From Halobaculum gomorrense (GTDB taxonomy: Archaea > Halobacteriota > Halobacteria > Halobacteriales > Haloferacaceae): a DNA stretch of 64,000 nt. Shown here one piece after another: positions 6,988-61,961 of the stretch (the first letter of the stretch is position 1; each line of letters starts with the position of its first letter). A model generated the notes under the pieces. That model ran no database searches. It worked only from the letters and a program-made list of their open reading frames with translations, and was not told the DNA's origin. Location of the stretch: contig NZ_FQWV01000010.1 of assembly GCF_900129775.1 (NCBI RefSeq), positions 1 through 64,000 of the forward strand. The letters are read 5' to 3'. The translations under genes were made by a program, and so were the position numbers.

Positions 6988-7968
6988 TCAGCCGGTCCAC
7001 TCTTCGAAGCTCCGATACACGCCCTTCGAGAGGTAGCGCTCGCTGGAGTCGGCAAACACCGTCACCACCGAATCGTACGGCGCGTCGACGGCGCCCTGGC
7101 GGATCTCCTCGGCGACCTCGATCGCCGCCAGCGAGTTCGCGGCCGCGCTGGAGGCGACCAACTGCCCCTCCTCGCGGGCGAGCCGCGCCATCTCCTCGTG
7201 GACCGCGCGGTCGGGGATCGTCTTCAGATCGTCGAGTTTCGCTGGATCGACTAACTCGTTGGTACTCACGTCGTGGGTGCCGATCCCCTCGGTCTTGTAC
7301 TCGCCCTCCTCGGCGTCCTCGCCGAACAGGTCGCCGTACGTCGATCCCTCCGGCTGGACGCCGACGATCCGCGCCGCCGAGCCCCGGTCGCGTGCGTAGT
7401 CGGCCATCCCCATCAGCGTCCCGCCGGTGCCCATGCCGGCGACGACGGCGCCCACCTCCCCGTCGAGCGCGTCGAACACCTCCGGACCGGTCGTCGCGTA
7501 GTGGGCCTCGGCGTTCAGGGGGTTCGAGAACTGCTGGGGGACGACCGCGTCGTCGAGTTCTGCGGCGAGCTCGTGGGCGCGCTCGATGGCCCGGCCCATG
7601 CCGTCCTCGGACGGGGTGTTGACGACCTCCGCGCCGAGCGCGCGCATGAGCTGCTGCTTCTCGACGCTGAAGCGCTCGGGGACGACGAACACCGCGTTCA
7701 CGTCGAGTTGCCCCGCCGCGACCGCGAATCCGATGCCCGTGTTGCCGGCGGTCGGCTCGATCACGGTGCCACCGGGGGAGATGGTCCCCGCTTCGAGCAT
7801 GCGTTCGAGCATGTACGTCCCGATGCGGTCCTTGATCGACGCGCCGGGATTGAACGACTCCAGCTTGGCGTACACCGGGACCTCGTCGGGCGCGGCGTGG
7901 ACCCGAACGAGCGGCGTCTCCCCGACCGTCTCCAGCACGGAGTCGAGGGGTTCGCGGTGAGTGGTCAT
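6988..7968 (-). CDS. cysK: Cysteine synthase (PLP-dependent)
   Basis: A 326-residue fold-type II PLP enzyme that would make cysteine from O-acetylserine (or O-phosphoserine) and sulfide. The PLP Lys is in NPGASIKDRIG (about residue 41), the asparagine loop is EPTAGNTGIGFA (about 70), and the phosphate-binding Gly loop is GMGTGGTLMG (about 175). Length matches CysK; the cystathionine beta-synthase regulatory domain is absent, though a CBS-type activity cannot be excluded from the core alone. The ATG at 7968 gives a natural N-terminus; upstream in-frame codons add nine residues without homology. It is a single-gene unit facing DUF4112. Confidence 0.88.
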   Translation of the reverse strand: MTTHREPLDSVLETVGETPLVRVHAAPDEVPVYAKLESFNPGASIKDRIGTYMLERMLEAGTISPGGTVIEPTAGNTGIGFAVAAGQLDVNAVFVVPERFSVEKQQLMRALGAEVVNTPSEDGMGRAIERAHELAAELDDAVVPQQFSNPLNAEAHYATTGPEVFDALDGEVGAVVAGMGTGGTLMGMADYARDRGSAARIVGVQPEGSTYGDLFGEDAEEGEYKTEGIGTHDVSTNELVDPAKLDDLKTIPDRAVHEEMARLAREEGQLVASSAAANSLAAIEVAEEIRQGAVDAPYDSVVTVFADSSERYLSKGVYRSFEEWTG

Positions 7969-55119: not shown

Positions 55120-55956
55120 ATGACGACCGCGCTCACGTACCTTCAGTTCCACCTCGCGTTCCTAGTGCCTGCTGTGCTGGCGCTGACGGCGACCGGGTTC
55201 GTGAGCCGCTCGCACGTCGAGGCTGCCGGCGCCGTCCGCACGGACGCCGGAGGAGTATCCGGGTATGGAAGGCGCTACTGGACGGGCGTCGCGGTCGTGA
55301 CGCTCGCGGCGCTGGCGTACACGATCCCGTGGGATAACTTCCTCATCGCCGTCGGCGTCTGGGGGTACGGCGAGGGCGCGACTCTTGCGACCCTCGGCCA
55401 CGCGCCGATCGGCGAGTACCTGTTCATCCTCGTCCAGCCGTGGGTGACGGCGCTGTGGCTCTCGCACCTGTCGATCCCGTCGACGTGGGCGGACGCCACC
55501 GGCGACCAACCGATCGTCGCCCGGGCGGTGGGGGTCACCCTCGCCGCGGGGATCGGGATCGCCGGCTGGGCGATGCTCGGCACCGACGCGACGTTCTACC
55601 TCGGCGCGATCGCGGCGTGGGCGGCGCCGGTGCTCGCCCTGCAGTGGGCCGTCGGCGCCCCCCAACTGTGGGCGCGGCGGCGCCTCGTCGCGCTCGCGAC
55701 GCTCGTCCCGGCGCTGTACCTCAGCGTCGTCGACCGCGCCGCCATCGCGCTGGACATCTGGATCCTCTCCGAGCAGTACACCACGGGGATCGAGGTGGCC
55801 GGGCTCCCCGTCGAGGAGGGCGCGTTCTTCCTCGTGACGAACCTGTTCGTCGTACAGGGGCTCGTGCTGTTCCGGTGGGTCGTCGACCGGTGGATCGACG
55901 GCGACGCGCCCCTCCCCGGCCGGCCCTCGCTGCGTCCGTTCGGTGACCGTCGCTGA
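55120..55956 (+). CDS. crtY: Lycopene cyclase (CrtYcd-type fusion)
   Basis: Converts lycopene to beta-carotene, the retinal precursor, supplying the chromophore of the bacteriorhodopsin beside it. The 278-residue membrane protein has about six to seven helices, in two homologous halves as in CrtYc plus CrtYd. Each half has a conserved motif: PWDNFLIAVGVWGYGEG with EYLFILVQPW in the first half (about 72-110) and ALDIWILSEQYTTGIEVAGLPVEEGAFFLVTN (split here; about 205-245) in the second. The PxE(E) acidic pairs are present. ATG at 55120. Same strand as bop, 149 bp downstream, with a hairpin between. Confidence 0.9.
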   Translation: MTTALTYLQFHLAFLVPAVLALTATGFVSRSHVEAAGAVRTDAGGVSGYGRRYWTGVAVVTLAALAYTIPWDNFLIAVGVWGYGEGATLATLGHAPIGEYLFILVQPWVTALWLSHLSIPSTWADATGDQPIVARAVGVTLAAGIGIAGWAMLGTDATFYLGAIAAWAAPVLALQWAVGAPQLWARRRLVALATLVPALYLSVVDRAAIALDIWILSEQYTTGIEVAGLPVEEGAFFLVTNLFVVQGLVLFRWVVDRWIDGDAPLPGRPSLRPFGDRR

Positions 55957-56008
55957 CCGGCCACGCGGACGAGCATTCATTCTCCTCGGCGCCCTGCGGG
56001 GCGACGAC

Positions 56009-56508
56009 ATGCCCGCCCGCATCGACGCGCTGTACACCGCCCCCGAGGCCGGCGAGCCGATGGCGGAACACGACCGCTACCTCCGAGGGACCGGCTTCTA
56101 CTCGCCGCTCTACGTCTGCGAGGTCACGCTCGTCGCCGCCGCCGCCGCGTTGGAGGCGATCCGCGACGACCTCGGGATCAACCTCACCGACGGGCGCCAC
56201 CCCGCAACGTCGTCGTCTGCGGCGTCGACCTTGACGACCTGCTGGGTGCGACGTTCCGTCTCGGCGACGCGGACGCGGGCGCCGTGCTCTGCGGCACCCG
56301 CCCGCGACCGCCGTGTGCCCACGTCGAGCAGGTCGCCGGCGAGGCGGGCGTCGCCCGGGCCCTCAAGGGCCGACGCGGCGGCATCTGCGCGGACGTGGTC
56401 GACCCCGGACCGATCGCCGTCGGCGACGGGGTCGAGGTGCTGGAGGAGGACCCCCGCAGCGAGGGTCGCCGGATCGTCGACCGACTCAGGGAGTCGCTCG
56501 GGAGCTAA
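56009..56508 (+). pseudogene. MOSC-domain gene broken by frameshift and internal deletion
   Basis: Frame 1 (56009 to about 56200) reads MPARIDALYTAPEAGEPMAE, then RGTGFYSPLYVCEVTLVAAA. After a CCCC run at 56200-56203 the MOSC sequence continues in another frame, with NVVVCGVDLDDLLGATF, then CGTRPRPPCAHVEQVAGE, the conserved MOSC Cys region, and ICADVVDPGPIAVGD. Adding one base to the C run restores one frame. The usual GRGL.GD stretch between EHD and RYLRG is also missing (about 13 residues). MOSC proteins bind molybdenum cofactor or transfer sulfur. Not likely to be functional as written. Confidence 0.75.
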
Positions 56509-57698: not shown

Positions 57699-58347
57699 GC
57701 ACGAGACTGCGGCGGGACGGAGTCCGGCCGCCGTCGTCGCGACGGCGGTCGCGCGGACGCGTCGGGGGCTCCTCGCCGCGCTCGCCGACCCCGTCGCCGC
57801 CGCGGTGCTGGTCGCGGCGACGGCGGCTTACGCGCTGGTGTACGCCGTCGCCGTCGGCGACCTCGGGAGGGCCGCGGGGGGAACGGGGACCGTCGGCGGC
57901 GACGCCGGCGCGGTCTCGGTGACCGTCGTCTCGGCGCCGGTGACCCGCGGGCTCTCGGGGGAGGGGGTCGCACTCGTCGCGGTCGGCCCCGTCGAGTACC
58001 TGTTCGTGCCCGCGACGCTCGCGGTCGCCGTCGCCATCGGCCTGCTCGTCGGCGCGAATCTGGCGCTGTCGGCGCTGGCGTGGCGCCGGCCGGCCGCCTG
58101 CGACATCTCCCCGGCCTCGGGGGTGGCCGCGGGGTTGCCCGCGTTGCTGTCGGGGACGGCCTGCTGCGGCCCGCTGGTGTTCATCGCCCTCGGGCTCCAG
58201 GCAACGAGCGCCGCGTTGACGGCGATCGCGTGGCTGCGGCCCGCCGCGGCTCTCCTGCTCGTCGCCTCGCTGCTGTGGGCGGGGTGGCGGCTGGACGTTC
58301 AGTCGTCGGCCGCCGACTCCCCGGGGAAGATGCTCTCGGGGATGTAG
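57688..58347 (+). CDS. Membrane protein with SGTACCGP motif
   Basis: A 219-residue membrane protein with about five hydrophobic helices. SGTACCGPLVFIALG (about 150-165) places vicinal cysteines inside or at the edge of a helix, as in mercury/metal or thiol-handling membrane proteins (MerT-like). An additional Cys lies in RRPAACDISPASG. It overlaps the DUF3179 gene by 11 bp and is translationally coupled to it. The role could be electron, metal or sulfur transfer across the membrane to the DUF3179 lipoprotein, but this is inference. It overlaps the tail of the convergent acetamidase gene by 49 bp. Confidence 0.75.
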   Translation: MSREHETAAGRSPAAVVATAVARTRRGLLAALADPVAAAVLVAATAAYALVYAVAVGDLGRAAGGTGTVGGDAGAVSVTVVSAPVTRGLSGEGVALVAVGPVEYLFVPATLAVAVAIGLLVGANLALSALAWRRPAACDISPASGVAAGLPALLSGTACCGPLVFIALGLQATSAALTAIAWLRPAAALLLVASLLWAGWRLDVQSSAADSPGKMLSGM

Positions 58348-59300
58348 GCCGTCACCGTCCAGTTGGGCGCGTCCACGACCTCGCTGACCTTCAGGTCCAT
58401 CGCAGCCGAGCACAGCAGGTACGCCTCCCCGCGGGTGAGCCCGCGGTGCTCTGAGAGGTGAGTGATCATGTGTCGGGTAGCCTTCTTTGTCGCCTCCATG
58501 AGATCCGAGTCGATGCCGGTCGTCGCGTACATCGGCTCGTCGACGCCGGTGGGCGTGAACGGCCCCGAGGTGGCGAGTTCGGGTTGTTCGATGTCGAGGT
58601 CCGACCGGACAGTGAACCGCGCGGTGACGAACATCGGCGCCTCTACGCCCGTGACGCACACCTCACCGTCGCCCTGCGCGGCGTGGCAGTCACCAGTCGA
58701 GAACAGCGCGCCCTCGGCCTCGATCGGGAGGTAGACGGTCGACCCGGCGGTCATGTGCTTCACGTCCATGTTGCCGCCGACCGACCGCGGCGGGAGCGTG
58801 TCGTGCTCGCCCGCCTCGGCGGGCGCGTTGCCGATGACGCCCGGGAACGGGTCCAGCGGCACCTCGATCCCGTTGACGAACTTCCCGATGTCGCCCTCGA
58901 GGTCCCAGATGTGGATGCCCGGATCCTCGAAGTCCTCCGGGAGCAGGCCCAGCTCCATGTCGCCGGGGAAGTAGAGGTTGTACCCCCACCCCTTGTGCTG
59001 GAGGTCCAGCAGTTCCACCTCGAGGACGTCGCCCGGCTCGGCCCCCTCGACGTACACCGGGCCGGTGAGCGGGTGGACGGGGTCGAAGCTCACGTCCGTC
59101 ACGTCCTCGGCGGTGGTCTCCACGTCGATCTGGCGGTCAACCGCGTCGCGGCACTCGAAGCGGACCACGTCGCCGTCCTCGACCGACAGCGCCGGTTCCA
59201 GGGAGTTGTCCCACGCCGAGTGGACGTTGCGGTCGGCGTCCGAGAGCCGGTAGTCGACGGAGTACTCCTCGCGGTCGGTGTCGTGCCCGTGGTGTGGCAT
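58299..59300 (-). CDS. Acetamidase/formamidase-family protein
   Basis: A 333-residue FmdA/AmdA-family protein that would hydrolyse short amides to ammonia plus carboxylate. Seen: HPLTGPVYVEGAEPGDVLEV (about 77-96), FPGVIGNAPAE (about 152), PPRSVGGNMDVKHMTAGST (about 170-188) with the conserved GGN, SVYLPIEAEGALFSTGDCHAAQGDGEVC (split; about 190-215) and CSAAMDLKVSEVVDAPN (about 297). A His-rich HHGHDTDREE lead opens the protein. ATG at 59300. The end overlaps the convergent CC-motif gene. An upstream divergent kinase pseudogene starts about 210 bp away. Confidence 0.88.
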   Translation of the reverse strand: MPHHGHDTDREEYSVDYRLSDADRNVHSAWDNSLEPALSVEDGDVVRFECRDAVDRQIDVETTAEDVTDVSFDPVHPLTGPVYVEGAEPGDVLEVELLDLQHKGWGYNLYFPGDMELGLLPEDFEDPGIHIWDLEGDIGKFVNGIEVPLDPFPGVIGNAPAEAGEHDTLPPRSVGGNMDVKHMTAGSTVYLPIEAEGALFSTGDCHAAQGDGEVCVTGVEAPMFVTARFTVRSDLDIEQPELATSGPFTPTGVDEPMYATTGIDSDLMEATKKATRHMITHLSEHRGLTRGEAYLLCSAAMDLKVSEVVDAPNWTVTAYIPESIFPGESAADD

Positions 59301-59513
59301 GTGACTACGTTACACCCGGCGGCGCAAAAACGCGACCCATCCGGCCCGTCACGCCGGTATCGGTCGACACGACGGTCACGGACCCCGGATCGCCGACGGG
59401 ACGACGCGGGTACCGAGTGGAAAAACGCACGCGGCGATCGCCTCGGCCGGTCGGTTCTCGCCGTCGATACCGCGACCGACGCGGTTTTGAACCCGGATCG
59501 GCTCGCGGCGACC

Positions 59514-60589
59514 ATGGACGCGAAGCGGATCGGGGCGGCGGCGGTCATCAGCGCGACCGGGATCGGGCTGGCCGCGATCGCGGTCCGCCGACTGTGGCTC
59601 GGTGTCTCGGGAACTGCGGGGGGATCGTCGCGGGCGCGACGCTGCTGCTGGGCGTCGCGTTCGCCGCCGGCGGGCCGGCGATGTACCGGACGGAGGTCGA
59701 CTCGGACCACCTCCTCCGGGTGGCCGGCTGGAACACGCTCGGGGTCGTGGTCACGACGGCGGTGCTCGCGCTCGTGGCGGCGTACCAGGCCACGACTGGC
59801 GGCCGCGTGACCGCGCCGCTGCTGTCCGGGGGTGTCGTCGTGGGCGTGAGCGCGTTCGCGCACGTCCTCATCGGCTTCACCGACGTGCGCCGGATCCGGG
59901 CCCGGACCGTGGCGAGACAGCGACAGAAGGCGGCGGTGGTGAACCGCTTCGTCCGCCACGACCTGAAACACCACGCACAGCTCCTGCTCGGGTACGGCGA
60001 GCAGCTCGTCGGGTCGGGGGACGGCGACGACGCGGTCGACGCCGCGGTCGTCGGGAGGCGGGTCGCCGACATCGGGTCGGAGCTCGCCGAGACGAACGAC
60101 CGGATCGCGGTCATCGACGACCTCCTCGACAGCGACGACGATCGCGCCGCGGTCGACCTGGCGGCGCTCGTCGGGGAACGTCGTGGCGAGTGGGAGTCAG
60201 CGCACCCAGGCGGCGAGTTGACGGTCGACCTCGACGCCGACCTCCGCGTGGCCGCGGGCGACCACCTCGGGACGGCCCTGGAGGAACTGGTCGAGAACGC
60301 GTTCGAGCACGGCGGCGACTCGCCGTCGGTCGCGGTCGAGGGCTCGCAGACGGGCGAGGAGGTCCGCGTGGAGATACGCGACGACGGCGACGGCTTCCCC
60401 GAGCGGGAGCGCGCGCTGATCAACGAGGACCGGACCGAGACGCAACTCGACCACAGCGACGGGCTCGGACTGTGGCTCGCCAAGTGGATCGTCGAACACT
60501 ACGGGGGCCGGCTCGCGGTCGAGTCCGGGACCGCGGAGGGCGGTCGGGTGGCGGCGACGCTCCCGGCCGCCGACGCGACGGCGACGTAG
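59514..60589 (+). pseudogene. Sensor histidine kinase broken by a -1 frameshift in a G6 run
   Basis: Frame A (ATG 59514) encodes MDAKRIGAAAVISATGIGLA, the first membrane helix, and runs to the six-G run at 59618-59623. Frame B (-1) carries on with GGIVAGATLLLGVAFAAGGP, two or three more helices, a DHp helix FVRHDLKHHAQLLLGYGEQL with the phosphoacceptor His, and the HATPase: NAFEHGGDS (N-box), IRDDGDGFPE (G1), GLGLWLAKWIVEHYGG. Adding one G restores one frame (SGTAGGIVAG). Alternatively translation starts at ATG 59681 in frame B, giving 302 residues without the first helix. An error in the sequence is also possible. Confidence 0.78.
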
Positions 60590-60722
60590 GCGAGGCGCCG
60601 ACGGGCGGCGAGCCCGAGGAACGACCCCCCGCCGAACTACGCCGAACGCCGTTCAGCGAGTTCGATGAGGCTCACGCCGGATCGAACTACGAAAATCGGA
60701 GAGTTTCGAGTTTGACTTCGGC

Positions 60723-61961
60723 TTACGCCTCGTCAAACAGCGTCTCGCCGTCGACCATGTGCTCTGCGACGGCGTCCATGTCGAGGGTGACGCCGAGGCC
60801 GGGCTCCTCGGGGATCGTGATGTAGCCCTCCTCGATCACGTCCTCCTCGACCAGGTCCTCCCACCAGCCGAGCTCGTAGGAGTGGTACTCGACGGCCAGC
60901 GAGTTCGGGATGGCCGCGCCGACGTGGGCGCTGGCTATCGTTGCGACCGGCGAGGAGACGTTGTGCATCGCGACCGGGACGTAGTACTGGTTCGCCACGT
61001 CTGCGATCTTGCGGGTCTCGCGCATCCCGCCCACCTTCGGCATGTCGGGGGCGATGATGTCGACCGCCTGGTTCTCGATGAGTCGGCGTTCCTCGGTCAC
61101 GCGGTAGCGGTTCTCACCGACCGTGATCGGCGTGACCGTGGACTTCGTGACCTCCTCTTGCACCTCGAGGTTCTCCGGCGGGACGGGGTCTTCGAGCCAC
61201 CACACGTCGTACTCCTCGATGGCGTCGGCGAGGCGCTTTGCCGAGCCGCCCGAGAACGTCCAGTGGCAGTCGAACGCCACGTCTGCCTTATCCTTCACGC
61301 GCTCGGTCACCCGCTCGACGATCTCGGCCTTATGGCGGATCTCGCCCGGGCGGAGGTGGCGGTTCGCGCGGTCCTTCTCGAAGCCCGATGGCACGTCGAG
61401 GTCGAACTTCAGCGCGTCGTAGCCCAGTTCCTCGACGACCCGCTCGGCCTCGTCCGCGCACGCCTCGGGGTCGGCCTCCGCCTCGGTGTGGCAGTCGCAG
61501 TAGACGCGCATCTCGTCGCGGTACTTCCCGCCCAGCAGCTGGTAGGCCGGGACTTCGAGGATCTTGCCCGCGAGGTCGTGTAACGCGACCTCGATGCCCG
61601 AGATGGCGGAGACAGTGATGCCCTCGACGCTCCCCTCGCCGCTCATCTTCTGGATGAGGTGTTCGTACAGGCGGTCGATGTCGAGGGGGTTCTCCCCCTC
61701 GATCATCGGCGCCATGCGCTCGATGAGTTCGGGGACGCCCGCGCCCCAGTAGGCCTCGCCGGTGCCGACGATGCCGGCGTCGGTGTAGACGCGCACGAGC
61801 GTCCACGGGAAGTTCCCGTCGACCATCGTGCACTGCACGTCGGTGATCTCCACGTCGCGGCCGCCGCCGCGCTTGGCCGTCGCGCCCATCGTCTCGCCCG
61901 ACAGTTCCCGCATCGTGTACTCCGCGTTGGGGTCGTGGAGCGAGTCGTAGTTTCTGCTCAT
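60723..61961 (-). CDS. Sugar-acid dehydratase, enolase superfamily (xylonate/gluconate dehydratase-like)
   Basis: A 412-residue mandelate-racemase/muconate-lactonising-like enzyme dehydrating an aldonic acid to its 2-keto-3-deoxy form. N-terminal cap: YTDAGIVGTGEAYWGAGVPE (about 57). Barrel: ALKFDLDVP with a base Lys (about 185), DVAFDCHWTF (about 230; metal Asp), WWLEDPVPPENLEV (metal Glu, about 257), PITVGENRYR (metal Glu), MHNVSSPV (about 330; His). From memory, haloarchaeal D-xylonate dehydratase (XacD) and gluconate dehydratase share this N-terminus (LHDPNAEYTMRELSGETMG). Which acid is used cannot be decided. ATG 61961; it has its own promoter. Confidence 0.86.
   Translation of the reverse strand: MSRNYDSLHDPNAEYTMRELSGETMGATAKRGGGRDVEITDVQCTMVDGNFPWTLVRVYTDAGIVGTGEAYWGAGVPELIERMAPMIEGENPLDIDRLYEHLIQKMSGEGSVEGITVSAISGIEVALHDLAGKILEVPAYQLLGGKYRDEMRVYCDCHTEAEADPEACADEAERVVEELGYDALKFDLDVPSGFEKDRANRHLRPGEIRHKAEIVERVTERVKDKADVAFDCHWTFSGGSAKRLADAIEEYDVWWLEDPVPPENLEVQEEVTKSTVTPITVGENRYRVTEERRLIENQAVDIIAPDMPKVGGMRETRKIADVANQYYVPVAMHNVSSPVATIASAHVGAAIPNSLAVEYHSYELGWWEDLVEEDVIEEGYITIPEEPGLGVTLDMDAVAEHMVDGETLFDEA

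Follow-up and report, generated by a model that had tools for sequence, protein, structure and literature searches.

Within the window, the stretch of 64,000 nucleotides analysed here, positions 59514–60589 of the forward strand are, judged from their sequence, a single Halobaculum gene that encodes a membrane histidine kinase with four helices. The gene starts with ATG at 59514, contains a run of six G at 59618–59623 and ends with the stop codon TAG at 60587–60589. The frame set by the ATG is open to 59810 and encodes 98 residues, and the kinase part is found in the -1 frame, which is open until 60589. Hydropathy analysis predicted one membrane helix (residues 6–24) in the first frame and three further helices in the -1 frame from 59624 onwards; taken together over both frames, they correspond to the helices, four in number, of an intact orthologue from another genome (G010). 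The N-terminal part with helix 1 (59514–59623, forward strand), delimited by hydropathy, alignment and the starts of homologues, ends in the G run. The remainder (59624–60589, forward strand) comprises helices 2–4, the DHp histidine region RHDLKHH and the ATPase domain, as assigned by a HATPase_c match, an alignment of 17 homologues and hydropathy. An earlier note had described this split, with helix 1 in one frame and the rest in the -1 frame, and its description and coordinates proved correct. Its proposal that one added G would restore a single frame agrees with an alignment of twelve loci (the window, ten loci of other genomes and the paralogue L012 of the same genome), in which the G run of the window was one base shorter than the homologous codons of the 11 other loci.

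The ATPase domain matched HATPase_c (PF02518) with an E-value of 9.1e-16 and 58.7 bits, above the cut-off of 26.4. The motifs RHDLKHH, ELVENAFEHG, DDGDGFP and DGLGLWL, which we take to be the phospho-acceptor histidine region, the N box and the G boxes, are all present in the alignment of the 17 homologues. The curated score of HisKA_4TM (PF16926) was reached neither by the window kinase (13.3 bits, cut-off 22.6) nor by the intact homologue L004 (15.5 bits). The window kinase thus has a four-helix plan similar to HisKA_4TM and is not a member by profile score. In the text cited, this domain is described as known from haloarchaea only (PMC5847659).

The gene is flanked by two genes on the reverse strand, a divergent one of the acetamidase/formamidase family (58299–59300; PF03069, E 5.3e-69) and a downstream one for an enolase-superfamily (MR_MLE) protein (60723–61961; PF13378, E 4.3e-60), both of which also adjoin the G010 orthologue. 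An Rfam search over 58302–61961 gave no match, and literature searches returned nothing about this kinase gene. About 27 bases ahead of the ATG position, the aligned upstream regions of the twelve loci share a TATA-like element, TTTT in eight and TTAT in four of them; in the window, its TTTT lies at 59485–59488 on the forward strand, the promoter function being deduced from this conservation. Its distance from the ATG points to a leaderless transcript. Haloarchaeal transcripts are typically leaderless, and AUG is reported as required for leaderless initiation, according to the part of PMC3986360 used here. From the conserved element and this published view, 59514 is the most likely start of translation, which would then run out of the kinase frame some 36 codons later.

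Homologues, start codon and paralogue

A homologue search, covering 11 genomes of the genus and then, with E-values of at most 1e-80, 170 genomes of the family, revealed 17 homologous loci in 16 genomes, the genome of the window accounting for two of these loci. All 15 loci of other genomes (46–74% identical) are open in a single frame across the position of the junction and have a start codon 37 codons ahead of it, ATG in 12 and GTG in three, the latter belonging to the homologues with 46–47% identity. Their N-terminal sequences are recognisably alike, and in the three database copies examined (public Halobaculum plasmid records) the annotated start lies at this same codon. Since all foreign homologues are single-frame here, the frame changes within a single homologous protein and not at the border of two genes. 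This is the arrangement of a pseudogene formed by an indel, with a break in one protein and intact orthologues (15 of 15). Between 20 bases before and 10 bases after the junction, no foreign homologue carries a run of five or more G; the G run is therefore not an inherited tract.

The closest counterpart is the G010 orthologue L002 (74% identical), which has the same formamidase and MR_MLE neighbours, the same TATA-like element and the same ATG. Unlike the window copy, it forms one open frame and reads CCGGTTCC where the window has the G run. The kinases of H. roseum (WP_222923746.1), H. magnesiiphilum (WP_222609418.1) and H. halobium (WP_284063445.1), which are 57–60% identical to the window kinase, share the start 37 codons ahead of the junction; in contrast to it they are intact, and all three adjoin nirK and lie near an HTH gene.

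The second copy in the window's genome (G000), the paralogue L012 (G000:C10:417414-418367, corresponding to 12414–13376 of L065), is 59% identical to the window kinase. Like the latter, it is out of frame in its N-terminal part, in the region of helix 1. The lesions differ, as L012 has lost its ATG (CTAGAT in place of ATGGAT in the alignment) and has one base inserted at another G-rich place; its location differs as well, as it sits in a nirK/nor cluster next to a copper-oxidase-family gene matching annotated nirK and a nitric-oxide-reductase gene. No ATG was found in the L012 kinase frame upstream of the homologous region, and its first methionine lies near the end of the aligned protein. Measured against L003 and L004, the kinase part of L012 showed no visible acceleration (eight comparisons, all with a chi-square of 1.40 or less). 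Its dN/dS values with L004 (0.40) and L005 (0.47) were above those of L003 with L005 (0.29) and L004 with L005 (0.33).

Constraint on the kinase and other broken genes

Comparison of the window kinase with the intact G010 copy gave dN 0.188, dS 0.581 and dN/dS 0.324, with a lower ratio over the first 100 alignment columns covering the membrane part (0.118) than over the rest (0.395). For the first 35 codons, which are read in the other frame, dN/dS was 0.37. Relative rates were compared using 12 homologues as outgroups (11 of other genomes and L012), comparisons that share sequences and so are not independent of one another. Residues unique to the window copy were fewer than or equal to those unique to the G010 copy in 10 of 12 comparisons and more numerous in two. 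In the two comparisons whose chi-square exceeded 3.84, the G010 copy had the greater number of changes. Nothing points to relaxed constraint on the kinase, and neither a rate excess nor a second lesion of the kind that accompanies pseudogene decay was found in it. The break is therefore either young or compensated, or it does not exist in the living cell.

To detect coding segments that are out of phase, 144 G010 genes were compared with about 340 kb of G000, and six segments in five genes were flagged. Two of the genes were set aside by eye: 112208_115900 was read as the fusion of a shadow ORF with a real gene, and 106806_107339 as a repetitive C-terminal tail. The reverse comparison flagged 0 of 136, a nominal difference between directions (3 of 144 versus 0 of 136). 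An earlier scan found one split in G010 (C8, ORF 78016_78819), where about 120 bases separate the first 20 residues from the rest; most splits of a preceding scan (14 and 13) were taken as shadow ORFs or gene borders on the basis of codon-position GC. As the 144-gene scan left the window kinase itself unflagged, it can miss N-terminal breaks.

Three frame-broken genes were kept, the last two named by eye rather than by family search. In a MOSC-domain gene (window 55943–56508), the frame changes near 56200, and 36 bases between GACCGC repeats are deleted in frame, G010 being the sole reference for this deletion. An MFS-like gene (L076, G000:C8 at about 206,700) is one base short at one place and has lost about 250 bases net; the gene of a spermidine-synthase-like membrane protein (L077, G000:C8 at about 232,900) carries a five-base insertion. 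Neither deletions of this size nor an insertion of five bases can be put down to base calling, so the genome does contain decaying genes. The one-base shortfalls of the MOSC-like and MFS-like genes, both located at G/C-rich runs, are of the same sort as that of the kinase, and errors are a conceivable cause of them. What sets the window kinase apart is its single lesion.

Runs of six G or C are no special feature of this DNA, as the window contains 26 runs of six or more, and 82 runs of exactly six were counted in 340 kb sampled from the genome (24 per 100 kb). Runs of exactly seven were counted 8 times in this 340 kb sample and 22 times in 440 kb of G010, which gives a weak hint of shortened runs in G000, confounded by its lower GC content (0.679 versus 0.703). 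The assembly of the window genome is 99.89% complete with 0.47% contamination.

Origin of the frame break

The earlier note had offered sequencing error, phase-variable slippage and real loss with a possible restart as explanations. A restart at the in-frame ATG 59681–59683 (forward strand), or else at GTG 59594, would yield a shorter working kinase from a reading frame in which all kinase motifs lie downstream of 59681. The methionine at 59681 is shared by only one of the 15 foreign homologues, that of G010, which itself carries the upstream ATG in frame, and the natural start of the relatives, both by sequence (15 of 15) and by annotation (3 of 3), is the codon 37 positions ahead of the junction. 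As 59681 lies directly past helix 2, its product would be devoid of helices 1 and 2, whereas a start at GTG 59594 would keep three helices with a topology presumably reversed; leaderless initiation is reported to depend on AUG (PMC3986360, as far as cited). By eye, a Shine-Dalgarno-like sequence is absent from the 20 bases before either codon. We consider a functional restart very improbable. The same low standing has to be given to an on/off switch through slippage in the six-G tract. The idea is invited by the homopolymer, which lies at a frame break close to the beginning of a gene for a membrane sensor; yet phase-variable genes would be expected to keep a long repeat at the break; here the tract is only six G long (seven or more are used in the cited part of PMC3711429), it is missing from all 15 foreign homologues and it is one of the 26 comparable runs of the window. 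A literature search for phase variation in haloarchaea found 25 papers, and the 12 titles listed among them concern other matters than such a switch.

A programmed or tolerated -1 ribosomal frameshift, by which some full-length kinase would be made, fits the locus in form and is likewise improbable. The heptamer G-GGG-GGA (59618–59624), read in the frame of ATG 59514, has the form X-XXY-YYZ and the direction of the shift is the right one, but the Y bases, usually A or U according to the cited part of PMC8211752, are atypical. RNA folding predicted a 14-pair hairpin (stem 59630–59664) beginning about five bases past the heptamer; its stability did not exceed chance (z -1.05, with 29 of 200 shuffles as good), and the corresponding intact stretch of G010 gave z 0.69. 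The archaeal precedent, fucA of Sulfolobus solfataricus, is likewise divided by a -1 shift at a homopolymer and has full-length relatives, whose A run is shorter by one; it differs in its A-rich slippery site backed by experimental evidence (PMC8211752, as far as cited), whereas the window kinase offers a G run known from sequence. Indels compensated by low-level frameshifting are described in the cited part of PMC5009743, and the kinase part is still constrained. It is conceivable, if hardly probable, that -1 slippage of ribosomes on G-GGG-GGA ahead of a strong hairpin supplies kinase at a low level, that the last open copy became throttled translationally after the indel and that the constraint reflects its use. 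Against recoding of any kind, the site is not conserved, as neither a frame change nor a run of at least five G occurs in any of the 15 foreign homologues, and runs of six are common in the genome.

There remain, of the explanations offered in the earlier note, an ordinary indel in the organism and a base called too few; both are still in contention, and what the relatives add is that the gene is normally read in one frame. An error of sequencing or assembly, leaving the gene of the organism intact, is a serious though less probable explanation. Normal constraint, intact kinase motifs and a single lesion within a homopolymer are what a miscalled run would leave behind, G/C-rich runs that are one base short also form part of two of the three other breaks, and the rarity of seven-long runs in the G000 sample hints weakly in the same direction. 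Isolated frame breaks supported on both sides are regarded as errors or indel mutations in the cited part of PMC3711429. Real loss is also less expected in a copy that is the last potentially working member of the kinase pair in this genome. On the other hand, errors account neither for the deletions of about 250 and, relative to G010, 36 bases nor for the five-base insertion in other genes, nor for the lost start codon of L012, and they are less expected in an assembly of such completeness. Because the second kinase copy is broken too and other genes are decaying, we favour a recent, real null mutation by an ordinary indel, with a probability of roughly 55%. The uniform frame and start of the 15 foreign homologues and the gap placed in the G run by the alignment agree with this reading, and a dN/dS of 0.324 without rate excess would then reflect its youth. 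Relative to the homologues, the gene is one base short in the run 59618–59623, which puts helix 1 in another frame than the remainder of the protein. Ribosomes starting at the probably leaderless ATG 59514 would depart from the kinase frame some 36 codons on and terminate at 59810, and the resulting product of 98 residues without a kinase would make this a null allele.

The kinase pair and its nirK-linked copies

If the loss is real, neither member of this sensor kinase pair is intact in the genome; in relatives, one of the two belongs to the denitrification cluster, and the loss would bear on the dispensability of orphan haloarchaeal kinases. If the break is an error, the case serves as a warning to annotators. 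No general view is altered by either outcome: most likely this is a recent loss of an ordinary kind or a sequencing error, in a sensor kinase gene otherwise typical of haloarchaea, and not a new mechanism.

Six loci of the nirK type were found in the genus (L003–L007 and L012), each with a nirK-like neighbour and an HTH_10 gene. A nor-like gene is present in five of them; the sixth, L003, was read over 4 kb only. At the matching locus of G010 (L098 at about 7360–7730, G010:C2), the neighbours are present and the kinase is absent, so that together with the broken L012 the nirK-linked copy is lost or broken in both genomes. Between the HTH gene and the kinase of the H. halobium nirK cluster lies a gene (L102 941–1276) whose annotation reads CGCGG family rSAM-modified RiPP protein, and small ORFs of similar size occur in L065 and L098.
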